DNA of 64,000 nucleotides, taken from NCBI RefSeq assembly GCF_019649055.1, contig NW_026570332.1, positions 62,001 through 126,000 of the forward strand. Direction: 5' to 3'. This stretch comes from Paramacrobiotus metropolitanus (taxonomy: Eukaryota; Tardigrada; Eutardigrada; Parachela; Macrobiotidae). Each line of letters opens with the position of its first letter. Position 1 is the first letter of the stretch. Made by a program: the position numbers and the translations under genes. Positions 45,501 to 64,000 of the stretch are shown here, one piece after another. Below the pieces are notes generated by a model that was not told where the DNA came from, searched no databases, and worked only from the letters and a program-made list of their open reading frames with translations.

Positions 45501-47059
45501 TGCTTCGGAACTTTCTTTTCATGTTGTTTATAACTTGCGGCCTTCTCCAATTCAATTTCTTTAATCGCCTTTCTCTCTTCAGCCGCTTTTCTCTCGCGAT
45601 CCTTCTCCTTTTCGGCTTTTAACCGTTGCCGAATCTCCTCTGCTTCTCTTTCTTGCCTTTCCCGTTTGGCCTTCTTCCGAGCGGCTTTCGCAGCTTCGTC
45701 ATCGTACGCCGGTTTTTCCTTCCTAGGAGATTCCGTTTCCGTAGTTCGGCTATCGCTATCTTTCACTTGCTCCATGGCTTTTTCCTTCGCCTGTTTCTTT
45801 TCGGCCTTCCGTTTCTCCTCTTCTTCCAATCTCTCACGCTCTCGTGCTTCTCGCTTGGCTTTCTTCCTGGCTAGTTTTTCCTTTTCCTCTCGCTCTTTTT
45901 CGGAGTCGCTTTCGGATTTAGCCTTCTTTTCTGCTTTGTGTTCCGTTTCTTTCGTGTCGGATGTTTCATCATCACTGGAGGACAAGAAATTTTTCTTTTT
46001 TTCCGTTTCATGCCGACGCTCCTCTTTCTTCCTTGCAGCTTCCTTAGCCTGTTTACGTGCAGCTTTCTGCTGGGCGCGAAGACGATCAGCCTCCTCTTTT
46101 TTACGCTTGGCTATCCGAGCGGCTTTTTGATCCAACTCTTTTAAAAAGTCTTGAACAATTTCAAGGTGACCGACTCCTTCTTCCGGTTCCCAGGTGTTAT
46201 CTGAACTGCAAAATCAAAGCGGATAAACGAAAATCTTTAATAGCAAATGAGTTAACGACCGAAAATACGACACTTTCTGAATGCACAACATAGTATACTT
46301 TCCATCTTGACCGCGACCGCATCAAAGCCGCTCTATATTGGTAATAATTCGGAATTTTGAAAGATCAGTTGTAGCAGCAATCGCTGATATTATTCACAAA
46401 TATATTCACTGGTATTATCGCAATTCACCTATCACATTTTCCATAAATTTTCCAAAAAACTTCACCACAGCAATACATGCTAAAATCAATAATTTATAGT
46501 TCATGATTTATCCACATTAATGACGATTTCAAAGAACTGTGAATGGCAGTCTTTAAAAAAATAAATATTTACAAGAAATTATTGTTTAAAAAAAACACCA
46601 GCATTCATTGGAATCACTGCTAATGAAATAATGTTGTAACAGTAGTCCTATGCGGCTATGCCCGCTTTCAAAAATCGAATTTAGTTAACGACGTCTTGAT
46701 TCTTACGGTTGCTTGCAAAAAACAGCTGAATTCTTTCTTCTTTCATCGAATCTTTAAAGAACCAATCAACAGCACGGGGCACCGAGCAATGTAAATAAAA
46801 ACAAAAATCTTACGGTTTTGAAGTCGTCTTAATCCTTTATCAACCGCAAATCGAAAAATGGTGAATTCCTAATTCTTACGTACTCGGGATAACCATGCCA
46901 TTTGATGAAAAACTCTCGTTCTCCTCTCTTTCCGCGAACAGCCTTTACTGCTTCTACACAGAAGAGTGTCTGTCCTTCGGCATCTTCTAACTGTTCTTCC
47001 TCCTCGCTACTCTCGTCCGGCTCCTTCTTTTCACTCTCTTCCTCCTTCTGAGATTCCAT
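42534..47059 (-). CDS. tandem chromodomain protein with long charged linker
   Basis: Nine exons join in phase to 1009 residues: 47059-46884, 46205-44658, 44600-44409, 44329-43999, 43724-43637, 43570-43524, 43459-43330, 43239-43180, 42991-42534. ATG at 47059 has a good context (GCCATGG); the frame upstream is open, so an earlier start exon is possible. Chromodomain 1 spans residues ~30-75 (LFCVEAVKAV, FFIKWHGYPDSDNTWEPEE). Chromodomain 2 begins near residue 610 (FEVRKIVEDKW, YFVQWLGYDSDDDTWEPEE). Both keep the aromatic cage positions. Between them lie ~500 residues of K/E-rich, S-rich probable coiled coil and disorder. Chromodomains read methylated histone lysines (H3K9 or H3K27). The C-terminal ~250 residues (for example YAATNFKLPYM and VLVNYCDHFRKTLWP) are not recognised. 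There is no helicase, SET, shadow or ankyrin domain, so it is not CHD1, SUV39, HP1 or MPP8. Confidence 0.85.
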
Positions 47060-48088: not shown

Positions 48089-48374
48089 TGTCAGAGTGCC
48101 GTGCATATAGCACAGGGTAGTGGCACATATGCCTCACCATCATTGGATCGGCTCGCCATATGCCAGCTTTCTCAAACACGACGGAACGTGTTTGCCATTC
48201 GGATGCCAGCATCGGAACCGTTAACATCGTTTCCTAGCTTTCCTTGGTTTCATGCCCTTTTTCTCACCTTTAGAGATTTGTTTTGATGCTGATTAGCATT
48301 TATTTCATTGAAATAAAGCGATTGTTTCGAGGAGATGTTGCTCCCGTTGTCGTTTTCCCGTACAGCGTAGACGC
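48089..48374 (+). repeat. 5' LTR (minimum extent)
   Basis: Matches 62744-63031 with few differences over 286-288 bp. It starts TGTCAG and contains an AATAAA at 48312-48317 near its right part. The true 3' boundary is probably beyond 48374 (for example at GCTGTAACA near 48451) but cannot be fixed because the right-hand copy is truncated. Confidence 0.88.
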
Positions 48375-49239
48375 TTCTCCGAGATGGTGGAGATGCCTTA
48401 AGATCCTCGTCATTCCCTCTAGTTTGCACTCAACAGCGTTCACTCACAAACGCTGTAACACGGAAGTTTCCTCTTCTTCAGTGGAGACCCCGGGTCACCA
48501 GCGATAGCCCACAACAACCAGCAGCAGAAGAACCCGTACAGAAGCAAGGAGCGTCGCTGGTTCGGAAGGCACGCGGCCGCCAGCACGGAGAAGAACCGCG
48601 GATTGCGTACAAACAGTGGTAGGCAATAAACCAGTGGTTGTTGCGCATACTCTACGGGATTAATTCCTAGCAGATAATACCGAAGTGGGATTATTTCCCT
48701 GACTTATTTTAATTTTCCTTTTACGGGTTTAAGGAAGATATCGAGACGATTGCCTCTAACATATTAGAGTTGTCGGAGGAGGAAGTTGTTTGTGATCTGG
48801 TACTGAAATGAAGAACGTTTTGGTTATTGTGGTCGACGGTAAAACCGTCAAAATAATCGTGACAGAAATTCAAACCGTCTATCTAGACGATATTCTTTTG
48901 TAGTGGAACGATTGTTCCGAATTGATAAGTTATTAATTTGAAGAAATGCAGACGACATTTAACAGGACGATCGTTCTGGCAAGAGTTTCCTTGTGGTGCT
49001 AGTGCTGACGAACTAGCTGATTTTATCAGTGGCAGCAAATCGCAAAGCGAAACAATAGGAGATAGCCGAGCAGGCTATTTATAGCCGCCCAGGCCAAGAC
49101 TAGTTACAGACTGCAAAGCAGCGATACATTGAAACGCATTGACCTACAATGCAGTGCATAGTGTATACAGTGAAAAGACCTATTTCGAAATAAGTCTAGA
49201 ATTTAATTCTGAATTCTATCGCTTAGTTTTGACGGCATA
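48375..49239 (+). other. retrotransposon leader
   Basis: Remaining LTR plus untranslated leader before the gag start at 49240. I could not settle the primer-binding site: TGG-initial candidates at about 48482 and 48559 match no tRNA 3' end I can name with confidence. Confidence 0.5.
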
Positions 49240-49686
49240 ATGCCTGTAAATCGTTCACCGCCAAGAAAACAACCAGCTATCGATAGACTGAAGCAGGGCG
49301 TCGAAGACGTCCTAAAATCAGCCAGTAAGGCATTGAAAGGAATAACCGATGATCCAGCAAAGGCTGGCACGAGTGACGCTACACAACAAGACAAAGTCAC
49401 CCGTAGTAAAACGAATCAGTTGAAAGGGACAGGCGTGGAAGTTACCCACAAAGTCCTCGAAGATAAACCTCGTAAACCGAGGAAAGCAACCGTAATGGAT
49501 CAAGGAGATAATCTCCTTGATACACCATTAATGCAGCCACCGGAACAGTTGTTTTTCCGGCCGCTAACTCCGAGAAAAGCCGACAGGTTAATCCCGATAA
49601 TCGGGAAGAAGTACAGGCACCTGTGCCAGAGCGATCCGATAGCACTACCGAATCAACGGCCACAACAGGGTCGTTTTCTCAAGTGA
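49240..49686 (+). pseudogene. gag-like ORF, N-terminal piece
   Basis: Basic, low-complexity N-terminal region of the first gene, from ATG at 49240. It shows repeated K/R-P motifs (PPRKQPA, KPRKPRKATV). The coding sense passes to the -1 frame somewhere around 49510-49620, where both frames are open. No conserved domain is visible. It is the natural gag start because it follows the leader. Confidence 0.6.
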
Positions 49687-50234
49687 GCGAAAGCGAGCTG
49701 AATAAATCCGCAACGACGGAAGAAGAAGAAGAACCTGTGACAGTGATACCGACCACCTTGCGTAAAACGCAATCATATACAGCAAATCTGAATGAATTAT
49801 TGAATTCAGCGGCAAAGCCGGCAACAGGTTCCAGTATCGTGGAATTAAAACAGGCAACCGAAACTATTTCGGCAAATCAGGTATTGATTAAAGATCTGCA
49901 GAGGAAATTGGAAGTAGCTGAGGACGAAGTCCAACATCATAAGAACCAGTACCAACATGCACACAGTTCTTTTAAAAATATGGAAAAAATCGTATTGGGT
50001 CTGCGGGCCTTAATAGGCGAAAAGGATGCGGCAATGGCCGAACTAAGAGGAAAAGTAGATGAAGCACGCGCTAAGAATTCCGATTTAAATCAGCAAATCG
50101 CTGAGAAGGACACCATGCTTGATCAAGTGTGGCAAGAAAATCAACGATTAAAGACTAACAACTTTAATCATATTACCGATCTGAAAACGTGCAGTCTATG
50201 CTGCACGAGAGCCAAATGGAACATAAATCCCTAA
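49623..50234 (+). pseudogene. gag-like ORF, coiled-coil piece
   Basis: Continuation of gag in the next frame. After an acidic S/T/E-rich part comes a heptad-rich coiled coil of about 110 residues (LIKDLQRKLEVAEDEV, LGLRALIGEKDAAMAEL, LDQVWQENQRLK). A long coiled coil before the capsid domain is seen in some Gypsy-type Gags. It ends by a frameshift at about 50190. Confidence 0.65.
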
Positions 50235-51388
50235 TTGGGAAATTTAACTCTTTAGCTAAAGATTACCGAACGTTATATGATCGGCAGATGAATCCGGAAG
50301 CCGTAGAATACGGCGAGCGACCGCTCAGTAGGGCATATGCCGCAAATACTGAAGAGTCGCAGGTGTCTCGGGCACAGCATACACCCTCGGCAATGAACGA
50401 GAGTGGTTCCCGGGAAATGCCGAGTGCAGACAAACAGCAGTTTATCCGCAGTATTTTGCGGGAAGAAATCCAGCGAGCAGGCATCGGACAAAGCAGGACA
50501 GTAAGCCCTGTAAGGAAATCAGATTTGGCTGAAGTGATGCGACAGCCTGTACCACGTCCTAACTACAATGGTAGTAAAGAGGACATCGACAGTTTTATCA
50601 TAAAATTCGAACATGCGGCAATCGCAAACCGTTGGGTAACCGACGAGAGGAAGATTACCGAACTGGCGTATTGCCTTAAAGATGATGCCATTATTTGGTA
50701 TAATGGACTAATAACGTCGACGACGCCGCCGACAACTTATAAAGAGTGGAAAAAACAATTAATCGCCCGTTTTGGCGATTCGAAAAGAGCAGTAAATGCA
50801 CTTGCAGAACTGGCGAATCGCATGTATAAGCCGGGACAGGAAACTTTGGAAACTTATTATCAGTCGATGATGACATTGCGCGATCGCGCAGGATTTAACG
50901 GATCACCGGAGCAAGTTGTGAACTTCCTCGTAAAAGGGTTAAAATCCCACGAGAAATTACATGATAAAATAGAAATCATGAGGCCAGTAACTCCGGAACA
51001 ATTTCTGGAGATTATCCGTTATCTATCGTCGAATAATCCAGAGAAATACGTGATTCCTATCGGCAATACCCGACGTAAGCAGGATCGCGATAGCGAAGTG
51101 GTGACTGTACGAACTGTACAAGTACAACCGAAGACTTATGCGGCGGCGGCGGCCAGCCCGCCGCGGCCAAGCAGCAAGCCAAACAGTGGGAAACCGAATT
51201 ACGGTAATCGTAATAATAATAATATCCGCAGTAATATCAGCAAAGCTGAAAGTAGTGATATCCGAAATATTGAGAGGATAACCGCGCACCGTCTCGTAAA
51301 GAGCAGTGGGCGAATAATATTAGTAGAATTCAGGAAGCGACCGATCGGTCACCGGCCTTGCAGAAAACTCTGCGTGGCAACCGAGTAG
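50189..51388 (+). pseudogene. gag capsid (retrotransposon Gag domain)
   Basis: Contains the capsid-like Retrotrans_gag domain: YNGSKEDIDSFIIKFEHAA, RKITELAYCLKDDAIIWY, YKEWKKQLIARFGDSKR, TLETYYQSMMTLRDRAGF, then VVNFLVKGLKSHEKLHDKI. This is the helical core that assembles the particle shell. It is followed by an A/P/N-rich linker. The frame shifts at about 51360 into the nucleocapsid. Confidence 0.85.
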
Positions 51389-51711
51389 TGAAGTACTGCC
51401 AGCACTGTGATTTGTGCGGACATTATTTCCGAGATTGTCAGTTTCGCGATAAACCGCGAAGTGAAAACCCGACATACCTAGCCTACCATGATCCAGAAAC
51501 TGGAAATCGGCGATATGCCGCTGATTTCTACCAGCGCCGTAGTGGTAGTCAGTCAGGAAGCGAACCTAATTCGCCGGTGAGGCAGAGAAGTAATTCCCGG
51601 CAAAGTACCGGCTCAGTAGAGGAGCGGATACGTCCGACGTCAGGATCACCGCTACCGGATAATAATCCGTTTTCTGGTTTGGCGGATCAGGAAAACGAGG
51701 AAGGGCGGTAA
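51358..51711 (+). pseudogene. nucleocapsid zinc knuckle
   Basis: Has one CCHC zinc knuckle, CQHCDLCGHYFRDC, with the exact C-x2-C-x4-H-x4-C spacing, followed by an R/S/Q-rich RNA-binding-type tail. It continues the gag coding sense in another frame. Confidence 0.85.
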
Positions 51712-51779
51712 ATTCCGGCTTTACCGACCCGATTCCGCCCAAACCGCCGGACAAAATCGAAATAATTACAATCAACGGA

Positions 51780-52643
51780 TTGCGAATAGTCGAACCTGAT
51801 GAATCATCGGATAGTAGCAATGCTACTATTAACTTCTGTACGGCCGTCATAAGTCACACTGAACCTAAACGCGCACACCCGCTAATGCTAAATGCATTTA
51901 TAAATGGGCGCGAAGCGCCGATAATGATTGATACTGGAGCTGAAACATCTCTGATTTCTAACGAATTTGCTAGTGAAATTAGCGCAGCTAAAGTACCGTT
52001 AATTAAAGCCTTGCATATCCGCGGAATCGGCGGAGTGCGTGGGTTTTTAGTTACTCACTATTGCCGTATTATTGTTAAAATTCGAGATTTCGAAGTAGTA
52101 CACTCAGTGTACATTAAACCTACAACCGACGATATCAAGGTTTTATTGGGGCAGGATTTCCTGCAAGAAACCTTTTACGCAGTTCGAAATAATAAACTGC
52201 GTTACTTGGAATATCAGCCGAGTAATAAACATGGAACTGTTATAATTAACAGACCAACGTCACCTGTAATTCAGGCAACGAAAACCATAGAAGTAATTGA
52301 TCTCACAGGATCCGCAAAAGCGGATACGTCAGAGAGCGAAAATACCGTAGAAACTTTACTGTTTAATGGTGATGTTTCCAAACCGGAAGATAGTGTAATC
52401 TTCCCGATACCCGTGGCAACAGAAGGGATTGATGATACTGTAGAAAAGTTACAGTCAGAGGAAGTTACCGCATCGAATGGGAGCAAAGTCTTCCCGATAA
52501 CCGTGGCAAATGCTACAATAAATAGTGCAACACAGCCAAAAGGAATCCCCAACCGTAAATCGGTACTAAAAAACCGGGAAAATACGATTGCCAGCGAAGA
52601 CTACGTTTCGCCGCCTTTGGGGCGAGTATCGGGTGCTGGTTAA
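51780..52643 (+). pseudogene. retropepsin-type protease and start of spacer
   Basis: The active site is MIDTGAETSLIS (D-T-G), with the flap/helix region IRGIGGVRGF and a C-terminal VLLGQDFL (the family's ILG-x-D-F/W). It is a single-domain, presumably dimeric, aspartic protease that would mature Gag and Pol. The C-terminal ~130 residues are acidic and repeat a phrase (VFPITVA, IFPIPVATEG), with no known fold. Confidence 0.85.
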
Positions 52644-53034
52644 AGAAATCCAGGATTTAATCAAAGCAAAGGAAGACGGTATGAACGTCATGTACCTATT
52701 CATGGATGATGAAACACCCGTACCAGGGATTGATTCTGCAAAGGCAGAAGAGATCGTTCGTAATTTAGCCAAACAGTACAAATCGGAATATCTCGCTTTG
52801 GAGGAGAAACAGCGTCATTTGAGTGAGATATTTAGGTATTTTAAAATACCGTTGCCGTATGTACTACGTACATCTTTGCGAATATTAGCACAATTGACAC
52901 GGCGTCAATTGCCCGTATTGCCGTATCAATTAGCGGAATGTAAACCGCTGAATAATTTCGCAAACGAAACAATTCCTAAAACACTTGCGAACCATAATCG
53001 GTCAGTAAGTTTTGCGCCGATGGCGCGTCGTTGA
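52588..53034 (+). pseudogene. unrecognised spacer ORF between protease and RT
   Basis: Roughly 145 residues, charged and helical (IQDLIKAKEDGMNV, AKAEEIVRNLAKQYKSEYL). No family is recognised. Most Gypsy elements have little or nothing here, so this ~0.5-0.9 kb spacer is an addition peculiar to this element or its relatives. Confidence 0.5.
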
Positions 53035-53569
53035 ATTTATGATAGATGATTCGCCTACCGTAGTGAGAAAAACTCTTGATACTGCCGCTACTAATGAAAC
53101 TAATAATAATTTAATTAATCAAGCTAGCATCGAAGTAGTACCGGATCCTAATAAACTAATTATCGTAAATGCAGAATTGGTAGGGCCCACTGATTCTGCC
53201 GTGATCACTAACGGATCTCCGACTTGGGAATTTTCCGAGTCCCCGAATATTAATCCCACTTACCGCGGTACACGCGCTAAGCCTATTAAAGTCTTCGCCG
53301 GCGATAAATTACTAATTAATCCGGGTACTAATTGGGCGACAGTGAATGTCCATTTCGATGCAGACGAGCAGTTCGATACCGATAAATTTTTATTTCTTCC
53401 AAGTCCGCACCTGTATATGGAGCGGCGGATAAAACCGATGGAAGGAGTGGTTAAACCACTGAACAATAAATTTGATATGGTATTCGTTAATTTTCAACAC
53501 CAGCGGCAGTCCATTAAGAAAGGCCAATTTATTGGCTATCTAGAACCGTACGAGGAAATTCCGAGATAA
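53012..53569 (+). pseudogene. Pol linker upstream of RT
   Basis: Beta-rich segment with YRGTRAKPIKVFAGDKLLI, LYMERRIKPMEGVVKPL and VNFQHQRQSIKKGQFIG. This resembles the beta-barrel linker that many Ty3/Gypsy polyproteins have between protease and RT (pattern of N-x-x-x-x-x-x-x-K-G-x-x-I/L-G). It ends with a stop at 53567-53569 shortly before the RT part. Confidence 0.65.
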
Positions 53570-53589
53570 ATATTCAAATTAATGCCACA

Positions 53590-54187
53590 ATGTTGGCTGA
53601 GATGACTCAAGAGGAACAGGAAACTGTTAAAAAAGCCGTTGATGAATTGAAAATCAATCCTAATTTAACCGAACAAGAAATTCGGAAATCAAGGAAATTT
53701 TTCTCGAATATCCCGGCTTATTTGCCACAAAACTCGTCCATTTGGCGATGTACAAATCGTGAAACACCAGATAGATACCGGTGATACTCCGCCAATAAAA
53801 TCTAAACCGCACAGGACTTCGTGGCGAGGCCGCGAAATTATCCAGGAGCATGTCAACGACATGTTAACAAAGGGAATAATTCGTAAATCGAATTCACCGT
53901 GGTGCTTCCCTGTCGTATTAGCAAGTAAGAAAAATCCCGATGGGACGATCGGTACGCGATTCTGCGTAAATTATATAAAGTTAAACGACGCTACTAAAAG
54001 AACAATTATCCGCTTCCCAATCCAGATGAGCTTCTACAAGCTGTCGCGGATAATAAATATTATTGTGGATTTGACTGCAATGCAGGATTCTGGCAAGTGC
54101 AAATGCACGAGAATTCCATTGAAAAAACTGCGTTTATTACGCAGGATGGACTTTACGAATTTTACGAATGCCGTTCGGTGTCTGTAA
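53590..54187 (+). pseudogene. reverse transcriptase, N-terminal part, several frameshifts
   Basis: The RT fingers region is split over at least three frames. The helical lead-in lies at 53590-53700. HQIDTGDTPPI and SNSPWCFPVVLASKKNPDG (RT motif region 1-2) lie in the 53759 frame. The palm part, including the first catalytic aspartate region, lies in another frame between about 54010 and 54165. None of these breaks contains extra sequence; they are small indels. The product cannot be made as the sequence stands. Confidence 0.85.
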
Positions 54188-56060
54188 TGGCCCTGCAACG
54201 TTTCAGGAAGCCATGAATAGGACGTTATCGGACGTTCATAGCGAAAATATTTTTGCTTATTTAGACGACATTATCGCCGCCGCCAAAGACTTCGAAGACC
54301 TTAAACGTAAAATACGTTTAATGTGTGAGTGTCTTTTAAAGACAGGTTTCACGCTGAAACCGAGTAAGTGCCATATTGGCGAGACAGAATTGCACTTCCT
54401 CGGACATATCGTGTCCAAGGATGGGATAAAAACTGATCCCGATAAAATAGCGGCTATAGAAAAATACCCAAAGCCAGAGACAGAGAAGGATCTAAGATCT
54501 TTTCTCGGACTTTGCAATTATTATCGTAAGTTCGTCAAAGACTTTGCCGGTAGAACGCGCCGTTTATACGGCCTATTAAAAGGAGAAATTGATGTAAAAT
54601 CAAATTGGACCGCAGATCACGATGGTGAATTTGCTGATTTAAAATCGGCATTAATTAACGCGCCAGTATTGGCGAAATTTGATCCCAGTAAACCAACCGT
54701 AATTGAGTGCGATGCATCGACAATAGGAATCGGTGCAATATTACACCAAGATGGACATCCGATTATATATGCGAGCAAATTGCTCACCGATGCTGAAAAG
54801 AAATATCCAATTACAGAATTAGAATGTATGGCAGTAGTCTTTGCGTGTCGGAAATTTCGACACTTCATTGAGTACTCACACTTTTCGGTACAGACCGACC
54901 ATCAAGCTTTAACGAATTTATTGCGATCGGTTTCCCGCAAAGAGGGATTAAACGGCCGATTAACGCGTTGGGCACTTCAGCTCAGCAGTCATAAAATGAC
55001 TATTTTATATAGGCCGGGAAAACAATGTGATAACGCTGACGCGTTGAGTAGGCACCCGGTAGGAGAGGCTACAGAATGCCCAGACGATGACTGGGATGAG
55101 TTTAAAGACTCAAAATTCAGTACTCCGTCCATTCGTGTAGTAACGATAAGGGACGGAGCCGACCATGAAGAAGGGGAGGACAATTTCAAGTTCTACAGAG
55201 TAGAACAGGAAAAAGATCCGAATATCGAACGCATAATACATGCGCTAGAAGGACGCGTAGAAAGCGTACACTTACTAAAGCGACCCGGTTATTCCGGCTA
55301 CGAATTATGGAATGGTGTACTATATAAGATTTCAGAAAAAGACGGTCGAATTAATCGCCGTTTTGTGGTGCCAAAGCACATGCGAGTGGATATCATGCAT
55401 GCCATGCATGATGCACCGGCTAGCGGTCACTTAGGCCGCGCTAAAACTTATCAGGCGATAGCCTTGCGGTATTTCTGGGAGAATATGGTCTCCCAAATAA
55501 TTAAATACGTCGATCACTGCTTTGCATGCCAGCATCGCAAGACATTGCGCAAAGCGCCACCCGGTAAATTACAGCAAATCGCTATCGGCGAACCCTGGTT
55601 CAGAATGCAGGTAGATTTGAAAGGGCCATTGCCCAAGACAGCACGTGGAAACACGTATATTGCCGTAGCAATAGACGAACTCACGAAATTCGTGATTGCG
55701 AAACCGATACCAGACGCAAAAGCGGAAACCGTAGCAAATTTTTTAATTTACGATGTGTTCCTACCGTATGGAACACCGCAGATATTAAACACTGATAGGG
55801 GTACGCACTTCCATAATTATTTATTGGAAGCAATAAATAAACGTTTGCGAATACAGCATCATTTTGGTGCTGCGTACCATCCGATTGGACGAGGACTTGT
55901 CGAACGACAAATGCAGACGATAGCCGATTCACTCGCGATGTACGCCAGTGATGGTCGGGAACGTAACTGGGACAAAGTCCTTCCTTTCGTAATCGCCGGA
56001 AAAAAATCGTGTAGCAAACAAAACGACGAATATGTCGCCGTATTTTATGCTATACGGTAG
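54168..56060 (+). pseudogene. RT-RNase H-integrase
   Basis: The longest intact piece, 630 codons. RT: MPFGVCNGPATFQEAMN and the catalytic FAYLDDIIA, then HFLGHIVSKDGI and LGLCNYYRKFV. RNase H: VIECDASTIGIGA and VQTDHQAL. Integrase: HHCC zinc domain (HDAPASGHLG, CFACQHRK), then the core with QVDLKGP, NTDRGTHFHN and GLVERQMQ carrying the D, D, E residues. Gypsy integrases usually read N-G-x-x-E-R-x-N at the last motif; here GRGLVERQ. The frame is lost at 55999-56006, where a run of seven A replaces the five seen in the inverted copy at 63.6 kb. Confidence 0.95.
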
Positions 56061-56487
56061 AGAGCAGGTTATTCCTGCAGACACCGAAACTAAGACAAAT
56101 TTGCCGTCTGATCACGCGACAATTCGCGAATACATGGAGGAGCTGCGCTACAATTTAAATCGCGCTCATGACATAGCCGAGTTACATATTCGTAACGAAT
56201 TTGAAAAGAACGCCGAGCGATTCGACAAAGGTCGATCAGAAGATACTTTCAATATTGGAGATTTAGTGATGTTAAAAATAGAAAAAAAGAAAGGTGAGAC
56301 GGAGTCATTTCGTCGCAGGTTCGAAATCGAACCGTGGGAAATTATAGGATTCCCATACACTAACGCTGTCGAATTGAAGAAAATAAACTCCGATAAATCG
56401 GAGGAAATCCGTATAGTAAATTGCGAACGCATAAAGCCATACAGGACGACAGAAGAGGACCGGAAAAATGAAAACCCTATTAATTAG
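56032..56487 (+). pseudogene. integrase C-terminal domain
   Basis: Continues integrase: SPYFMLYGREQVIPADTE, then NIGDLVMLKIEKKKG and RRRFEIEPWEIIGFPYT, the basic DNA-binding barrel (GPY/F-like region). The inverted copy B carries the same protein uninterrupted. Here the frame breaks again at about 56470 in an A run that is one longer than in copy B. Confidence 0.9.
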
Positions 56488-56800
56488 GGACCTTTTGGAA
56501 AATAATAATTTAAAGGAAATCCCCGATAATCAGGTGGTCTTGGCAGATAGTTCTGCCGCTAATATTCCCGCTACCGACGTGGTCCGTACCTCTGCAGAAA
56601 TTGCTGCCGACAATCCCCTCGTACCTGATTCAGAAGAGTGGGAAACAGAGAATGATGACGAAAATAATACTAAGCACAATAGCGCTAATAAACCAGTGCC
56701 AAAAAAGCGATTTTTGCTTAAGCTACGCAAAAGCGCTAATGGATACACAAGAGTTAATCGTGTAGTTATTGAGCTACCGTACAAAGTACGCAAAGAATAA
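56468..56800 (+). pseudogene. C-terminal tail of Pol
   Basis: In copy B this segment is fused in frame to integrase, so it is the Pol C-terminus: LLIRDLLENNN, then an acidic part (SEEWETENDDENN) and a basic end (KKRFLLKLRKSANGYTRV). No chromodomain is present, so the element is not a classical chromovirus. It ends at TAA 56798-56800. Confidence 0.75.
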
Positions 56801-56928
56801 AATGACAAATTAGAACGATCGTTTTAATTATAGGATGTTGAAGCACGATAGAAAGCGAAGCTTAATTAAAATACCGTACAAAATCCACAATTAGATTGTG
56901 TATTTTTCCATTGCAGATATTTCCCGCA

Positions 56929-57420
56929 ATGGACCGCGATCAGCGACCGAACCGACCGGTTGGCAGAGGTAATCCTCGATTCTTCGCCCCACCCGTAGCG
57001 GGAAATCAAGCATACCGCCCGATACAGCGATTCGCTGCCCCGAGTGTCCAGAACGCTCAAAGCGCCGGTAATTTGCCCAATGTGGCACCAGAAGTGATTC
57101 CAGTGACTATGTCACGTAGCACGCAAACTGATCCAGTAATAGTGGCATCGTATGCCGAATACGAGCTATTGTTGCGTAGTAATCGGGAACGCGACTTGGC
57201 ATCATACAGACACTCATTGGCAGCGACTGCTGCCCAACCAGAGGAAATAGCTGCAGTTGATCAACTGCATATTACTCCGCCAGCAGAAAGAGTGGCAAAG
57301 GCCATGATAGCGCGTGCAAAGGCACAGAGTGATGCGGCGGAAGCTTCAAAAGAAATTGAAGAAGTGCCGTACGAATCAATTGTAAAGAAACCTATTAAAT
57401 CGCCTGCAAAGCAGGAGTAG
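56929..57420 (+). CDS. ORF3, first piece: disordered N-terminus
   Basis: Starts at ATG 56929, 13 bases after a splice-acceptor-like TTTTTCCATTGCAG. Proline/arginine-rich and disordered at first, then MSRSTQTDPVIV and a short helical part (AEYELLLRSNRERDL, AERVAKAMIARAKAQSDA). No match to env: no signal peptide, no membrane anchor, no cysteine pattern. It is followed 9 bp later by the next piece in another frame. Confidence 0.6.
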   Translation: MDRDQRPNRPVGRGNPRFFAPPVAGNQAYRPIQRFAAPSVQNAQSAGNLPNVAPEVIPVTMSRSTQTDPVIVASYAEYELLLRSNRERDLASYRHSLAATAAQPEEIAAVDQLHITPPAERVAKAMIARAKAQSDAAEASKEIEEVPYESIVKKPIKSPAKQE

Positions 57421-57428
57421 AAACGGCG

Positions 57429-57725
57429 TTGAAGGCAAACCCTAAGCGAAGCAGATCACCGAAACCACCGGCAGATGCCGACGAGCGATTAGCAAAGCTA
57501 ATCGCCGACCACGAGCAACAAGAGGCCAGAGATAGGCAGCGTTGGGGACAGTCCTTCATAATGGAAGGTCCGTTCGCCCCGACGAAAACAGACGCCCCTA
57601 ATGGGAAAGAACTTCGAGTAGTTACGATACCGCAGCACGTGTATAATACACCACAAGTCTTAACGCAGATAAGGCCACAGTTGCAAGTGCAACCGCCCCG
57701 GCGTTCTGGAAAGAGACTGGTTTAA
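57429..57725 (+). CDS. ORF3, second piece
   Basis: Basic then helical (PKRSRSPKPPADADERL, KLIADHEQQEARDRQRW), then a more hydrophobic part (LRVVTIPQHVYNTPQVL). The frame is one base back from the previous piece. Not recognised. Probably one protein with its neighbours, broken by small indels. Confidence 0.5.
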   Translation: MKANPKRSRSPKPPADADERLAKLIADHEQQEARDRQRWGQSFIMEGPFAPTKTDAPNGKELRVVTIPQHVYNTPQVLTQIRPQLQVQPPRRSGKRLV

Positions 57726-57754
57726 AGCCAGCCGTAATTAGATTCCCTACTCCT

Positions 57755-58408
57755 ATGGGAGTTGTCCAAGCGCCGGTCGAACACCAACAACCGGCTGGGA
57801 CCTTAAAAAGGGGTACGAACCCGGTCAGAATTAAGGAGGAACAGAGTTATATAATCCCGAAATTATCGGGAACGCGTACTCCGTCGCCAGCTACTAGCAC
57901 AGTATCCTACAGGACACATCCGCATCGAGTGCAAAGCACAACCTCACCAGGTGAGGAAGAAAAGAAGCGGAAATTAGTGGAGGAAAAAGAGGAAATCACA
58001 CGAAAAGTCGTGCAAGTAAGGGAGCGGCTGAGACATCAGCCGTCGTCATCAGAAGACGAAGAACATTCCCGTCTCGTGATCGACGAGACCCGCAGCGATC
58101 AGGCACAGAAAGGTAGTGAAGAGGACTTGATTAAGTTCTCTAGCGAGTCAAATGGTCGGAATAACTCGCCGGAAATTCCGGAACCCTTACCGAATGTCAG
58201 TTTACCATCACCAGCAAAGACTGGGCGATCACAACCGCCGAAACCGGTGACCAGTGAACAGATAGCACATATTACAACGTTGACATTGGACATTATAAAT
58301 AATGTCCGGAAGAAGGATAAGATGGCAGCACCGGTCCATTTGCTACAGAGATACAGGCAGATTATGGCCCTCGACAAATTGACGCCGAGGAATACGCATC
58401 TGCCGTGA
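57755..58408 (+). CDS. ORF3, third piece: linker and start of a winged-helix-like unit
   Basis: A K/E-rich helix (KKRKLVEEKEEITRKVVQ), acidic serine clusters (PSSSEDEEH) and then TSEQIAHITTLTLDIINNV followed by VHLLQRYRQIM. The last part, continued in another frame just before 58405, has the helix pattern of a winged-helix domain and may be the first of several in ORF3. Confidence 0.5.
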   Translation: MGVVQAPVEHQQPAGTLKRGTNPVRIKEEQSYIIPKLSGTRTPSPATSTVSYRTHPHRVQSTTSPGEEEKKRKLVEEKEEITRKVVQVRERLRHQPSSSEDEEHSRLVIDETRSDQAQKGSEEDLIKFSSESNGRNNSPEIPEPLPNVSLPSPAKTGRSQPPKPVTSEQIAHITTLTLDIINNVRKKDKMAAPVHLLQRYRQIMALDKLTPRNTHLP

Positions 58409-58773
58409 AGGTAGCCTCAGAGCGTGGTACGTTGGTGGAAGTTTACGAGAATTGGTCACCAACAATGAAGTATGCGATAACCGCAAGCCGTAAAAGTCGA
58501 TATGTCGACATGCGAGTTAATAACATGCAGGAAATGGTAGAAGCAGTGGCAATAGCCATTAGGGACATCCACAATGTTCGTGGATCAACCATCGATGAAA
58601 TTGTTAGGTATATGTACCTAACTATGCCGTTAGACTCGGTTAATCCCGAACAGCGCTATTCAGATGTCACTACCGCTGTTAATGAGGCAATCGCCACAGG
58701 AATAATCGTAGACGCAGCATTAGAAGGGAATAGTGGGCGCTATGCGCTAGTGAAACTAATCGTAAAAGGATAG
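58405..58773 (+). CDS. ORF3, fourth piece: linker-histone-like winged helix
   Basis: After ASERGTLVEVYENW (end of the previous unit) comes a ~75-residue domain: MQEMVEAVAIAIRDI, GSTIDEIVRYMYLT, YSDVTTAVNEAIATGIIV, GNSGRYALVKL. Helix order and the closing G-x-(I/L)-x...G-x-(Y/F)-x-L hairpin follow the H1/H5 globular domain (winged helix that binds the nucleosome dyad in linker histones). The call rests on pattern, not on a profile search. DNA or nucleosome binding is inference. Confidence 0.6.
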   Translation: MKVASERGTLVEVYENWSPTMKYAITASRKSRYVDMRVNNMQEMVEAVAIAIRDIHNVRGSTIDEIVRYMYLTMPLDSVNPEQRYSDVTTAVNEAIATGIIVDAALEGNSGRYALVKLIVKG

Positions 58774-58871
58774 CCGAATTAACCGGCCAACACGTAGAGG
58801 AAGTACCATATTCACCCGCGAAGCGCGTTCCATTCGGGCGAAGGCCTATAGCCCTAGATGAACAAAAAACT

Positions 58872-59369
58872 TTGTTGGCACAACCATCGCGTAATGATTT
58901 GGCAATAGCCATATATAAAATTGAGCAGAGAGGGGAAAATCCCACAGCACAGCGGATAAGCGAGTATTTCGGCACTTATCAACCGTACGCTGTGCAGTCT
59001 ATGATTCGTGCGATGTACGAAGCTTCACAAATAACCCGTCGTTATAATGGCGAAACTTCGCCGTCCTATTATTTTGGTCGTAAAGGACTGTCCTTTCTGC
59101 AGCGAGTGCAATTCGAGAAAGTCCCCCAGTGGGATGAAATCGTTATAAAAACGATTGCAGAAATTGCCGACCCTTCGGGATCGTCGCCTGACGAAATCAT
59201 ACAGTATATTACCACTGTATGTCCAGCAATAGCTGACCAAGTGGACGATGCTGTAACTCTAGCGATAAGCCGCTTAATTAGCGACCCGAGAATTATCGGG
59301 TTGAATGACCCGCATCGCGGGATGGTTTTATCCGTGGTGTTAGACCACGTTAGCGAAGAAGAGAATTAA
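58872..59369 (+). CDS. ORF3, fifth piece: two more winged-helix-like domains
   Basis: First unit: RNDLAIAIYKIEQRGENP, AQRISEYFGTY, YAVQSMIRAMYEASQI, SYYFGRKG. Second unit: WDEIVIKTIAEIADPSGSS, DEIIQYITTVCPAIAD, DDAVTLAISRLISD, IIGLND, GMVLSVVL. The second is H1-like (helix, G-S-S-x-x-x-I-x-x-Y-I, helix, hairpin); the first resembles generic winged helices. It ends with an acidic SEEEN and TAA. With the pieces before it, ORF3 would carry about four such units. Confidence 0.6.
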   Translation: MLAQPSRNDLAIAIYKIEQRGENPTAQRISEYFGTYQPYAVQSMIRAMYEASQITRRYNGETSPSYYFGRKGLSFLQRVQFEKVPQWDEIVIKTIAEIADPSGSSPDEIIQYITTVCPAIADQVDDAVTLAISRLISDPRIIGLNDPHRGMVLSVVLDHVSEEEN

Positions 59370-59475
59370 TCCAATTTTACAGTATCTCCGAGGTGGTTAG
59401 ATGCGTATACTACGCAATAATATTAAAAACGCCTTAAATACTGCATAATTTAATTATTTTAAATTATTTGCAGAG
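59370..59475 (+). other. gap between ORF3 and ORF4 with acceptor-like site
   Basis: Holds TTTTAAATTATTTGCAG ending at 59473, three bases before the ORF4 ATG at 59476. It would serve as a 3' splice site for a subgenomic ORF4 message. Confidence 0.5.
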
Positions 59476-60633
59476 ATGGAGGAATTACCGTACGCCTATG
59501 CGCCAATGCGCTCCTGCAATCGCTGTTTAAATAATACGAATAACCGTAAATGCGTGGAATGCACGCTGGGACCCAACTACCGATCGGATAATCCGCAAGT
59601 CGTTGTCTCCCGATTGTTTGACGAAGTACTCATGCGCAGCCTGGATGCGTATCGCACCATAACGCTGCCGGAGTATTGGACGGTAGTCTGTGCCACGCCA
59701 TATTACTATAATGGCATCTACAAGAGTGCCGTTAGGTTTATTGGCGATCAAGCTGATGAATGGTCGTGTGCGACACACCCGGAGAACTTCGGACGGAATA
59801 CCGCTAATCTGATGCAATGCATCGCTGCACCATCGAATCAGGTAACTATTCCAGTGAACAGTACCTGTGGGAATTTTGAGATATTCCCGGTCAATACGGG
59901 TATTCAATATTCCTCGAATAGAGATAATTCTCATAATTTACAGAATTATCCGACGAGTGTCGGTGGACAGCAAATGCCGTCTCAACAACCAGCATACGGC
60001 CAATGGCAGCCGTCGGTTGTGTTTTCACCGCAACATCAGCAGCAAAGTCTGCCGGGATATCAGCCACAAATGCAGCAAACACAAACACCTATTCGTTATA
60101 CGAATATGGCGCTGCAAGTACCACCGGGCGCATTGCCTCCAGAGCATATTGCTCATCTTCAGCAGAGCCTCCCCAGCGGAAGCTACCAGTATGATCCAGA
60201 GACGAAAATGATAACTCCGTGTCCATGGCCAGCCGGGACAGCACCGAAAGAACCCCCACAGCGGCAAACTAATCCGCTGTTAGCGAATCTTCCGCCGCTG
60301 ACCAGGAAACCGCCAGTGAATCAACAACCGCCTTTACAATTGCTGCGAGTGCAGCCTGTACCTGTAAGTGAACCAGTTTTCGATTCCGAGCCGAACTCAG
60401 GTGCTAGTCATTCTAGCAACACTAGCAATGCTAGTGGCAAAACTCGCCATAAAATTACTTACAATTTACCGAATGTGGGGAAAACCCCAGATAATTCTTT
60501 TGAAGAAGGCGATATTATGCCCGGTAAGCTGAATGCAGCTGTTAAATTTCAGAGGAAGAAGGCAGCAATTGGAACATCCGCGCAACGCGCGATAAATCAA
60601 CACCGTATAAACCGGATGCATCTGTGTTGGTGA
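59476..60633 (+). CDS. ORF4, first piece: zinc-binding N-terminus and P/Q-rich body
   Basis: An intact 385-codon frame. Residues 14-29 hold CNRCLNNTNNRKCVEC, a C-x2-C-x8-C-x2-C arrangement fit for a zinc site. A ~100-residue folded-looking part follows (VVVSRLFDEVLMRSLDAY, TITLPEYWTVVC, SAVRFIGDQADEW). From about residue 150 it is rich in Q and P (MPSQQPAYGQWQP, LPPLTRKPPVNQQPP). No signal peptide or membrane segment, so not an envelope protein. The function is unknown. Confidence 0.65.
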   Translation: MEELPYAYAPMRSCNRCLNNTNNRKCVECTLGPNYRSDNPQVVVSRLFDEVLMRSLDAYRTITLPEYWTVVCATPYYYNGIYKSAVRFIGDQADEWSCATHPENFGRNTANLMQCIAAPSNQVTIPVNSTCGNFEIFPVNTGIQYSSNRDNSHNLQNYPTSVGGQQMPSQQPAYGQWQPSVVFSPQHQQQSLPGYQPQMQQTQTPIRYTNMALQVPPGALPPEHIAHLQQSLPSGSYQYDPETKMITPCPWPAGTAPKEPPQRQTNPLLANLPPLTRKPPVNQQPPLQLLRVQPVPVSEPVFDSEPNSGASHSSNTSNASGKTRHKITYNLPNVGKTPDNSFEEGDIMPGKLNAAVKFQRKKAAIGTSAQRAINQHRINRMHLCW

Positions 60634-60935
60634 TGCCTGAAAGGCAAACACATCCACAATACATCCGCCGCGATATCGACGTTATTCGTCGTGATTTGGA
60701 GTTATATGTGGATCGTGTTGTGTCAGTAATTGGCACAGTTAATACCGACCAAAGAGCCGAAATTGGCAAAGCCATTATTGACACTTTGGATTTACTCCAT
60801 ACTATCGGATATGATCTCCGTATTAAGAACTCGATCAATATGTATAAGATTGATCTGTTCCGTCAGATGGAGATTAGGCGATACGAAACGCCACGCCGTC
60901 ATGGACTGCGTAGCGCGCTGGATATTTCCAGCTGA
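60624..60935 (+). CDS. ORF4, second piece: helical
   Basis: Follows in the -1 frame: YIRRDIDVIRRDLELYVDRV, TDQRAEIGKAIIDTLDLLHTI, NMYKIDLFRQMEI. Mostly amphipathic helix. Probably the continuation of the ORF4 protein. Further coding-like sequence lies in another frame at about 60985-61130 (NPEEFLLQFILPDTDPAKFW). Confidence 0.5.
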   Translation: MLVMPERQTHPQYIRRDIDVIRRDLELYVDRVVSVIGTVNTDQRAEIGKAIIDTLDLLHTIGYDLRIKNSINMYKIDLFRQMEIRRYETPRRHGLRSALDISS

Positions 60936-61083
60936 AGGAGAAACTTATCGAAATTACCGTAGTAGATTGGGAATTAATTTCCCAGTTTAAAATCTTATAC
61001 ACCGAACAATCCGGAGGAATTTCTCCTGCAGTTCATCCTACCGGACACGGATCCAGCAAAGTTCTGGTTTTCTGCCGTGCCGC

Positions 61084-61731
61084 GTGTGCAATACAGCGAA
61101 AAGTTGCCCCATGAAAATTACATGGGATACGATTAATATCGGATGGGGACTTAAGTATATTCTGGTCATCCTCTCCGCGCTAATGGGCAATTGCCACGCT
61201 CACCACTGGGCCCGCACATACCGGCAGGAGGAACAGAATCGTCGATTAAAAAGCTACGTTAATCGCTTGGGCGAGCCTCTAAATGAGGAACAACAAGCGA
61301 AAGTCTTAAATGACATTCTGGGTGTGATGCAAGTCGACGGACTGAAGACCGAATCAATCCATAATGGATACTATGACGGGATCTATGATCTCATTAAGCG
61401 ATTTGCTGACCGTCAAAGTCAGGGGAAGCGCAAAGTCGCCCCAAATTCTCCCGACACTCCAACGACCAGCAAGACAGTCCAACCTGAACCGAAGAAAACC
61501 GTAGTGTCAATGGACACTGAAGAAACTGACGAAACGCCGGAGACAGCTAATGCTGCACCAGTAATTGCAGAGAACACTGCAACCGTACCGCCGACTGTGA
61601 ATACCGAATCTGCAGTGATCACTGCGCCACCTAGCGAAATTCCGCGAACGGATGTCGTGGCGTCGGTGGAATCACTGACGATTTCAGGAAGCGCAGAAAC
61701 TCCTGGAAGAAGCAGTAATGGAGACGGATGA
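61084..61731 (+). CDS. ORF4, third piece
   Basis: A frame with one short hydrophobic stretch (YILVILSALMGNCHA), helical charged parts (EEQQAKVLNDILGVMQV) and a T/P/E-rich disordered end. The coding sense of the first ~60 bp is doubtful because another frame looks better there. After its stop, coding-like sequence continues in other frames to about 61954 (LIFAVHIPDNDTDPLYY). Not recognised. Confidence 0.45.
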   Translation: MCNTAKSCPMKITWDTINIGWGLKYILVILSALMGNCHAHHWARTYRQEEQNRRLKSYVNRLGEPLNEEQQAKVLNDILGVMQVDGLKTESIHNGYYDGIYDLIKRFADRQSQGKRKVAPNSPDTPTTSKTVQPEPKKTVVSMDTEETDETPETANAAPVIAENTATVPPTVNTESAVITAPPSEIPRTDVVASVESLTISGSAETPGRSSNGDG

Positions 61732-62001
61732 GAAGCCGTCTATGAGAATAATTTTCTCTATCCATCCCGCCAAGCCCTGCGGGACAGGCAGTACGAACTG
61801 GAAGCAATGGGCCAGGGTTGACCTACCGATGTGGACCACTTGATTTTCGCGGTACACATACCGGATAACGATACCGACCCGTTGTATTATCCAGGAGGAA
61901 ATGGAGAGCGGATATGTTGGATGATAGTGCCGACATTAAGACTACGTCTGCCGTATTGAGCAACGCTCTTAACGTACTAAATGCCGAACCGCAGATGGAA
62001 A

Positions 62002-62440
62002 CGCCGTAAAGCATTAAATGCTAAAATTAAACGCCGTAGTACACTGTGTATAAATTGAAATCGCCGTATTGTACTATGAGTACACAACTTCATATTAATC
62101 GCCGTAGTGCACAATGAGTCGCAAAATTAACATTGTTAAATCGCCGTACAGTACAACGAGTACAAAACGAAAAGGCCGTAACGCCCAACGAGTGCACCAG
62201 ATTGAATTCATTTCAATCCTTACAAAATGAATCGCCGTAGATGCACAAATCAGTGCATAATACTTGGTTAAAGAACTGCCGTAGTGCATTAATTGCAGGA
62301 AAACGGATAAATCAAATCGCCGTAGATGCACAAATCAGTGCATAATACTTGGTTAAAGAACTGCCGTAGTGCATTAATTGCAGGAAAACGGATAAATCAA
62401 ATCGCCGTAGATGCACTATGTTGCACACATGTCGTGGATC
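62002..62440 (+). repeat. array of GCCGTA-plus-hairpin units
   Basis: Eleven units with (C/T/G)GCCGTA begin at 62002, 62032, 62062, 62101, 62143, 62174, 62233, 62277, 62318, 62362 and 62403. Most are followed within 0-4 bases by a short inverted repeat, for example AGCAT-TAA-ATGCT, TACAC-T-GTGTA, GTACT-ATG-AGTAC, ATGCAC-AAATCA-GTGCAT. Stems differ in sequence but keep pairing in most units, with GTAC or TGCA at the core; the units at 62101 and 62174 pair poorly. Part of it is an 85-bp direct repeat (62231, 62316, partial 62401). Confidence 0.8.
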
Positions 62441-62743
62441 GACGCTACAAAGCGTATAATTGGAGGAAAACTCCGGAATGGAACCTGCAAAACTAACACG
62501 GATTAACGTGTGCGATTTTGGAAATAACCGGAATGGGAATTTAACGGATTCTGTTACGAGTATAAACTCGTTTTGATTAAATTTACGCCGCACTTTGCCG
62601 CGTCTTGTTCTCACTAACTGTGATGAAATAATTGGCACATTTTTTTTATAAGAATTTCTCATTATGTTGCATATAAGATGCGTTTTTTCATTTCTCATTC
62701 CTGTTTTGAGCCTCAAGGGGCTTCGGCATCCCGTCCCGTGGCA

Positions 62744-63031
62744 TGTCAGAGTGCCGTGCATATAGCACAGGGTAGTGGCACATATGCCTCACCATCATTG
62801 GATCGGCTCGCCATATGCCAGCTTTCTCAAACACGACGGAACGTGTTTGCCATTCGGATGCCAGCATCGGAACCGTTAACATCGTTTCCTAGCTTTCCTT
62901 GGTTTCATGCCCTTTTTCTCACCTTTAGAGATTTGTTTTGATGCTGATTAGCATTTATTTCATTGAAATAAAAGCGATTATTTCGAGGAGATGTTGTTTC
63001 CGTTGTCATTTCCTCTGTACAGCGTAGACGC
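62744..63031 (+). repeat. 3' LTR, truncated
   Basis: Near-identical to 48089-48374, with AATAAA at 62967-62972. It stops at GCGTAGACGC where sequence of the inverted copy B begins. No clear polypurine tract precedes it; the bases just before are GTCCCGTGGCA. Confidence 0.9.
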
Positions 63032-64000
63032 CGGTGGCTGGAGTATTAGCGGCAGAATTATCTACCACAGCGCTGATCACCTGCTTATCAGGAATTTCAC
63101 TTAAATTATTATTTTCCAATAAATCCCTAATTAATAGGGTTTCGTTTTTTCTATCCTCCTCGGTAGTACGGTATGGTTTTATCCGTTCACAATTAACAAT
63201 GCGAGTTTCCTCCGTTTTATCAGAGTTTATCCGTTTAAGTTCCACCGCATTGGTGTAGGGAAATCCCACAATCTCCCATGGTTCGATTTCGAACCGACGA
63301 CGAAACGATTCCGTCTCTCCCTTTTTCCTTTCTATTTTAAGGATCACAAGATCCCCTATGTTGAAGGTATCCTCTGATCGACCTTTGTCGAAACGCTCGG
63401 CATTCTTCTCAAAATCGTTGCGGATATGCAACTCGGCTATGTCGTGAGCGCGATTTAAATTATAACGCAGTTCCTCCATATATTCACGTATGGTCGCGTG
63501 ATCTATCGGTAAATTCGTTTTAGTCTCCGTATCAGCAGGAATAACCTGCTCCCTACCGTACAGCATAAAATATGGCGACAAATTTGTCGTTTTATTCGCT
63601 ACACGATTTTTCCCAGCAATTACAAACGGTAGGACTTTGTCCCAATTACGCTCGCGGCCATCACTGGCATACATTGCGAGTGAATCGGCTATTGTCTGCA
63701 TTTGTCGTTCGACAAGTCCACGCCCGATCGGGTGATATGCAGCACCGAAATGGTGCTGTATCCTTAAACGTTTGTTTATCGCCTCCAATAAATAATTATG
63801 AAAATGCGTTCCTCTATCGGTGTTCAATATCTGTGGTGTTCCGTAAGGCAGGAACACATCATAGATTAAGAAATTAGCGACAGTTTCCGCTCTTGCATCT
63901 GGTATCGGTTTTGCAATTACGAATTTCGTAAGTTCATCTATCGCTACGGCGATGTAGGTATTTCCCCGTGTTGTTTTGGGCAATGGCCCTTTTAAATCTA
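63006..64000 (-). pseudogene. copy B of the element: integrase and Pol tail, inverted
   Basis: A minus-strand frame open from the window edge to 63006. It encodes integrase from just before LPKTTRGNTYIAV through NTDRGTHFHN, GLVERQ, SPYFMLYGREQV, NIGDLVILKIERKKG to the Pol tail NSAANTPATGV. It differs from copy A by a few conservative residues (for example K to R, E to D) and has none of copy A's frameshifts in this span. At about 63031 it runs into the antisense of the copy A LTR, so its natural C-terminus is lost and the last few residues come from LTR sequence. Confidence 0.93.

Follow-up and report, generated by a model that had tools for sequence, protein, structure and literature searches.

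The stretch analysed here, termed the window, comprises 64,000 nucleotides (nt) of the tardigrade Paramacrobiotus metropolitanus and corresponds to C112:62001-126000 (NW_026570332.1) of an assembly of 169.8 Mb in 533 contigs. It contains a Ty3/Gypsy element at about 48089-63031 with the order long terminal repeat (LTR), gag, pol, open reading frame 3 (ORF3), ORF4 and LTR. About 5 kb between integrase and the 3' LTR are occupied by ORF3 and ORF4. ORF3 is the subject of this report: For its last 375 residues, four winged helices in tandem (WH1 to WH4) are predicted, two of which resemble linker histones H1/H5. The gene and its units, whose coordinates are approximate, are located as follows:

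56929..59369, forward strand: ORF3, broken in the window, uninterrupted elsewhere with 814 amino acids (aa) from ATG
58247..58488, forward strand: WH1, generic winged helix (fold model, structure comparison)
58510..58758, forward strand: WH2, H1/H5-like, acidic (PF00538, fold model)
58878..59081, forward strand: WH3, basic winged helix (fold model; SAMD1_WH match below cut-off in family B)
59112..59351, forward strand: WH4, H1/H5-like, acidic (PF00538, fold model)

An earlier reading of the same letters, hereafter the preliminary description, had reported extra coding sequence behind the integrase. Frames are indeed present there at 56866-59369, split in the window into five overlapping pieces. 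Compared with a copy about 14.7 kb downstream, the window ORF3 has four single-base gaps, three next to short homopolymers, as well as 3 substitutions. Both recent decay and assembly error could account for the breaks; assembly error is favoured because the gaps lie at homopolymers. According to a paper on P. metropolitanus that works with Nanopore reads, the published genome, which may not be the assembly used here, is a Canu assembly (PMC11191345). The downstream copy has 822 codons without a stop, 814 of them from the ATG equivalent to window position 56929. By eye, about 440 N-terminal residues of ORF3 look disordered, charged and of low complexity.

A search of the genome with the ORF3 protein yielded at least 63 matches. 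Copies are designated by their contigs in the same assembly (C7, C39, C212 etc.) and fall into four families: A, to which the window belongs, B (C6), C (C414, C56) and D (C1:1961000-1974500). The intact copies that the preliminary description had suggested looking for exist in three of them: ORF3 frames of at least 800 codons without a stop inside the match were found in families A (e.g. C112, C212), B (C6, C1:4050139) and D (C64:656238, C1:1968229). In a protein search with family A ORF3, two P. metropolitanus proteins were the only matches among those listed, and a scan of viral contigs revealed no relative. NCBI has predicted proteins with isoform names for both ORF3 and ORF4.

In the AlphaFold model of the array (predicted local distance difference test, pLDDT, 74), each of the four units has its elements in winged-helix order; in unit 4, the last strands lie partly below pLDDT 50. 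The four repeats coincide with those seen in the preliminary description, and its assignment of two units to the H1/H5 type and two to winged helices in general agrees with the fold model and with PF00538 (linker histone) in families A to C. The PF00538 matches are carried by units 2 and 4. The curated cut-off of 22.4 bits was reached by all proteins scanned from families A (3/3), B (3/3) and C (2/2). The three uninterrupted family A proteins scored 24.6-25.6 bits with two stretches each, the sister copy reaching 25.6 bits, and a second family gave 42.2 bits (E 9.4e-11). Because 24,736 Pfam models were scanned and the frame is under purifying selection, the PF00538 match is regarded as more than chance. 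In addition, unit 2 aligns in fold to nucleosome-bound H1.8 and H5. For SAMD1_WH, whose cut-off is 24.5 bits, 14.9 bits were obtained in unit 3 of family B and 16.5 bits in family D. As a side observation, unit 4 of family B matches DUF4777 (PF16007) with 17.9 bits (cut-off 34.4), slightly above PF00538 for the unit alone; DUF4777 may be an H1-like winged helix.

Over the whole genome, PF00538 gave at least 61 matches, 38 of which overlap ORF3 protein matches. One corresponds to a plain host H1 gene on C33 (104.9 bits), and the other 22 include the family C loci on C414 and C56. Six loci (on C37, C42, C7, C63, C296 and C160) display two separate PF00538 matches each, as expected for two H1-like units per ORF3. 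Across 14 control genomes a single match was obtained, in E. coli and below the cut-off.

The order pol, ORF3, ORF4 recurs in the stretches read of families B, C and D, a finding that, like ORF4 itself and the splice-acceptor-like sites before both genes, goes beyond the preliminary description. Between reverse transcriptase (RT) tail and integrase, identity amounts to 75% for A-B, 52-53% for A or B against D and 44-45% for C against any other family. The corresponding values for the array are 35%, 25-29% and 13-18%. Hence, the families rank alike by pol and by array, which suggests that ORF3 has been inherited with pol since before the families split. ORF3 looks old and stable rather than captured by chance. 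In the Gypsy-type elements of family C, ORF3 frames reach about 1,750 codons, and N-terminal internal repeats seem to be present by eye.

Uninterrupted ORF3 copies are under strong purifying selection. This check on aligned genomic copies, already named in the preliminary description, was performed with fetched copies that have an unbroken array frame; broken copies were left out, which favours constrained ones. Within this limit, the outcome goes against the refutation named there, namely frames free of purifying selection. The ratio of nonsynonymous to synonymous substitutions (dN/dS, Nei-Gojobori) of the array was 0.048-0.117 in 15/15 family A pairs and 0.076 and 0.095 in two of three family B pairs, the third being saturated. 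Of the 18 pairs between A and B, saturation affected 16, and the remaining two yielded 0.23-0.25 at a dS near 3. The N-terminal part of ORF3 (3 pairs) yielded 0.12-0.15 and ORF4 (6 pairs) 0.09-0.16.

In families A, B and D, the most H1-like units are the least H1-like in charge. The globular domain of host H1 has an isoelectric point (pI) of 10.3. Unit 2 displays 4.4-4.7 in A, 5.5-5.6 in B, 6.1 in D and 9.6-10.1 in C, and unit 4 4.3-4.7 in A, 4.3-4.8 in B, 4.5 in D and 5.2-5.3 in C. Unit 3 has a pI of 8.3-10.4 in A, B and D and 5.9-6.9 in C; for unit 1, the values range between 5.3 and 10.0 across families. From helix 3 through the wing, a segment delimited by eye and judged by residue counts, 8 basic residues stand against 2 acidic ones in host H1. 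In A and B, units 2 and 4 have 2-4 basic and 4-6 acidic residues there. A lysine-rich C-terminal tail is absent in all four families; no more than about 20 residues follow the array before the end of ORF3. This means that families A, B and D combine neither the basic DNA-contact surface nor the lysine-rich tail of a linker histone, and that the basic unit 2 of family C is tail-less, too. Recent capture of host H1 was considered and rejected: hhalign probabilities between host H1 and units 2 and 4 are weak (18 and 55), and the host H1 charge is missing in both units. The array may descend from host H1 or from another winged helix.

Downstream of ORF3, the element encodes a second additional protein, and both genes are preceded by tracts resembling 3' splice sites:

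56903..56916, forward strand: 3' splice-site-like tract TTTTTCCATTGCAG, 12 nt before the ORF3 ATG
59458..59473, forward strand: 3' splice-site-like tract ending TTTGCAG, 2 nt before the ORF4 ATG (3 sister copies)
59476..62015, forward strand: ORF4, end approximate, broken in the window, uninterrupted elsewhere (847 aa)

The tract before ORF3 was found in 5/5 family A contexts, and an equivalent in one context each of B and D. Altogether, in 11/11 contexts the ATG of ORF3 (A, B, D) or ORF4 (A, B) is preceded at 2-12 nt by a T- or pyrimidine-rich tract with CAG or TAG at its end. In errantiviruses, env is located after pol and expressed from a spliced message. From the tracts and by analogy, we infer that ORF3 and ORF4 would be made from spliced messages. 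ORF4 is composed of an N-terminal cysteine motif (C-x2-C-x8-C-x2-C in A and B, x12 spacing in C), a proline/glutamine-rich middle and a conserved helix-rich core. Pfam yielded no match for family A ORF4, and the model of its core (mean pLDDT 46) is too poor to interpret. In the copies of C and D that were read, ORF4 is split over frames.

What might ORF3 do? Tentatively, and with somewhat less than even confidence, it is proposed to be a nuclear adaptor that would use its basic winged helices on nucleic acid and its acidic H1-like ones on proteins, and would thereby tether the element to chromatin. DNA or RNA would be held by basic units, which are unit 3 in A, B and D, also unit 1 in the case of D, and units 1 and 2 in C; the acidic ones, among them unit 4 in every family, would hold protein partners. 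In this way, ORF3 might attach the element's DNA or RNA, or its integration complex, to chromatin. The tandem winged helices of MOZ/MORF show that such tethering is possible, as they tether those enzymes. Replacement of the linker histone by ORF3 is not thought likely. A more far-reaching version appears rather unlikely: Here, an old animal Ty3/Gypsy lineage would carry a stable, spliced gene for a four-module chromatin reader of the H1/MOZ type that directs its genome or its integration to particular chromatin. Chromodomains and RNA polymerase III factors are known targeting routes of retrotransposons; if this version were true, such a reader would be a further one.

Several points weigh against the nuclear adaptor, which is a computational proposal throughout. 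On the broken pieces of the window, PF00538 reached E 0.035 and 0.0055, values below the cut-off and only suggestive. The whole family D protein (n=1) scored 21.0 bits and single family A units matched Pfam below the cut-off, too. Of the profile and structure comparisons envisaged in the preliminary description, PF00538 above the cut-off and winged helices in AlphaFold supported the assignment; searches of the PDB with single units placed proteins other than H1 at the top. H1 was not found in the PDB profile searches with units 1 to 3. Unit 1 matched archaeal MJ0754 best (E 8e-7 across 40 residues), which may be due to chance from a thin profile, and unit 2 a ribosomal protein (E 0.017). For unit 4, no match reached E 0.001; a non-histone CAP REPEAT chain ranked first (E 0.005), and a KAT6B chain appeared at E 0.41. 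Using hhalign, unit 2 matched neither unit 1 nor unit 3. Most of the structure matches listed connect unit 1 with cullins and bacterial regulators; H1 occurs among the matches of unit 1, too, and units 3 and 4 are barely represented. Cullins, MecI/BlaI, PadR and Fur are not taken as relatives of the array. In addition, the homology of the family C array, at 13-18% identity, is based on position and layout, unit 1 of families A and B has a pI of 5.3 to 8.3, and the splice sites are resemblances whose frequency lacks a chance control.

The main rival holds that ORF3, together with ORF4, regulates gene expression by controlling transcription, splicing or export of the element's own RNA, similar to what regulatory genes do in complex retroviruses. 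Such a role would fit a pair of additional genes behind pol that have splice-acceptor-like sites, as well as a basic winged helix joined to the charged, low-complexity N-terminal part seen by eye, and several winged helices of transcription complexes are among the structure matches. However, nothing found here sets a regulator apart from chromatin tethering or supports it directly, and it is judged unlikely. More doubtful is a structural role of ORF3 and ORF4 in the cytoplasm or in particles, possibly with an origin in RNA viruses. Both proteins are large and paired, ORF4 has its conserved core and cysteine motif, and unit 1 shows very weak matches to nucleoproteins (E 0.56 and 0.88). These matches do not rise above chance, the quality of the ORF4 core model does not permit a search with it, and the element already possesses a gag with a capsid match of its own.

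Slightly less probable still is that the array mimics H1, i.e. that it binds nucleosomal linker DNA and compacts or shields the DNA of the element. The preliminary description had leaned towards such binding. It is in accordance with two H1-type units by profile, the alignment of unit 2 to nucleosome-bound H1.8 and H5 and the basic unit 2 of family C (pI 9.6-10.1). On the other hand, the H1-like units of A, B and D have a pI of 4.3-6.1 compared to 10.3 in the host domain, 2-4 basic residues (A, B) face 8 in host H1 between helix 3 and wing, and none of the families has the lysine-rich tail. Mainly because of this low charge, binding of linker DNA in the manner of H1 is not the reading favoured here.

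A degenerated envelope protein, be it ORF3 or ORF4, is highly improbable. Position after pol and a splice-acceptor-like site recall errantiviruses, and ORF4 of family B has one 19-residue stretch with a borderline hydropathy of 1.75. In accordance with the preliminary description, ORF3 shows no env-like hydrophobic segment: The highest 19-residue hydropathy in ORF3 (A, B, D) and family A ORF4 is 0.94-1.37, none of it strongly hydrophobic, and Pfam contains no Env match for ORF3 or ORF4 of family A. By hydropathy and Pfam, family A hence lacks the membrane envelope protein after pol that characterizes errantiviruses. Random capture of a host gene without function, conceivable since LTR elements do capture host genes (PMC6431247, available part), is hardly credible in view of a dN/dS of 0.05-0.12 among uninterrupted copies and the presence of ORF3 in four families whose ranking is the same for pol and array.

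Extra ORFs are already known from LTR elements of rotifers, plants and planarians, to judge from the portions of the papers at hand; a winged-helix or H1-like content was not found described. The elements Vesta and Juno of bdelloid rotifers, whose ORF3 encodes a GDSL esterase or a DEDDy exonuclease, resemble those of P. metropolitanus as LTR elements of microscopic invertebrates with a non-envelope ORF after pol (PMC5408684, accessible text). The rotifer ORF3s are enzyme-like, relatively recent acquisitions without significant departures from neutrality, according to the same portion of that paper (PMC5408684). By contrast, the tardigrade ORF3 comprises a winged-helix array, is under purifying selection, occurs in four divergent families and is accompanied by a second extra ORF. 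Plant Retand elements share a long region between pol and 3' LTR with a TRP28 domain predicted to bind DNA, but differ in domain, in plant lineage and in extra ORFs that are partly antisense (PMC11963269, as far as available). Planarian Burro elements are likewise large invertebrate Gypsy elements with host-type domains; however, BIR, BCL2, MATH and other domains are situated inside one giant polyprotein (PMC6431247, in the part at hand), and the word histone is absent from the main text of that paper.

Among host proteins, MOZ/MORF (KAT6A/B) and SAMD1 also have tandem H1-type winged helices. In MOZ/MORF, two of them bind DNA cooperatively; in MORF, one domain recognizes unmethylated CpG specifically and its partner binds to the nucleosome dyad (PMC9908889, excerpted). 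These are host chromatin enzymes with two units, whereas ORF3 has four, with acidic or near neutral H1-like units in three families, and its profile matches to the MOZ/MORF/SAMD1 type are below cut-off. ORF3 is connected with linker histone H1/H5 by the family profile in units 2 and 4 as well as by the fold alignment of unit 2; it differs in its low pI in A, B and D, the missing tail and the tandem arrangement in a large protein. The preliminary description knew of no element with such an arrangement, and a literature search over titles and abstract openings, with subscription journals and preprints mostly outside, also found no retrotransposon with a linker-histone or winged-helix ORF. The part of a paper on tardigrade repeats that was accessible contained no such ORF, nor the word histone in its main text (PMC11071193). 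Most accessory genes of LTR retrotransposons still lack an explanation. For ORF3, the fold is recognizable, selection is strong and a single genome provides four divergent versions, so that its role is open to testing with purified domains. If ORF3 binds chromatin, it would be an example of an element carrying its own targeting or chromatin-handling protein.

The remaining parts of the element in the window are:

48089..48384, forward strand: 5' LTR, about 296 nt, end set by comparison with other copies
48385..48397, forward strand: putative tRNA primer-binding site, TGG start directly after the LTR
49521..51711, forward strand: gag pieces, retrotransposon gag / Ty3 capsid-like (PF03732, E 1.4e-6)
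51666..56800, forward strand: pol, aspartic protease-RT-RNase H-integrase (PF13975, PF00078, PF17917, PF17921, PF00665)
62744..63031, forward strand: 3' LTR, end approximate, lost where an inverted second copy abuts

These gag and pol matches in Pfam and the LTRs corroborate the initial assignment to Ty3/Gypsy. The pol order protease-RT-ribonuclease H (RNase H)-integrase of Ty3/Gypsy (Metaviridae) was found by Pfam in the window frames and in families B and D; protease is not among the Pfam matches of the family D frame, and family C pol was placed by alignment alone at 44% identity. A chromodomain was not among the Pfam results for the frames scanned, the last pol piece of the window being outside the scan. 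Both gag and pol frames are broken in the window, and gag may start further upstream; some sister copies have uninterrupted gag frames of 846-861 codons. A gag frame resembling that of family A is present in B; in the stretches read of C and D, gag was not identified.

LTRs and target-site duplications were analysed in family A. The window LTRs are identical over the first 226-229 nt and differ in the last ~60 nt by 6 substitutions and 2 one-base gaps; the full length near 296 nt was derived from six other copies fetched at both ends. Paired LTRs were found in all seven elements with both ends fetched. Four of them (C39, C76, C13, C212) have 4-bp target-site duplications, which come right after the LTR end ...CCGAGA. 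The other three were left out of this count: The window element and C7 abut element DNA, and the 3' LTR of C29 ends early, by about 20 nt. At this break, TAAT equals the 5' flank and is perhaps the duplication behind a shortened LTR. Four further copies were fetched at one end; three have one LTR match, C246 none. The own LTRs of the six non-window copies differ at 0 or 1 position over the aligned part, and so several subfamilies have inserted recently.

The 3' LTR is immediately followed by another gag-pol in inverted orientation (window 63006-64000 and C112:126001-136000) with an inverted LTR at C112:133312-133540, behind which ORF3, ORF4 and an LTR resume in forward orientation. Such an arrangement could stem from a misassembly or from an inversion that involved neighbouring copies. 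Between ORF4 and the 3' LTR, an 85-bp exact tandem duplication is located at 62230-62399. Upstream of the element, 44001-46000 exhibits a strong strand asymmetry (GC skew -0.21, AT skew -0.34), with no tandem repeat reported there.

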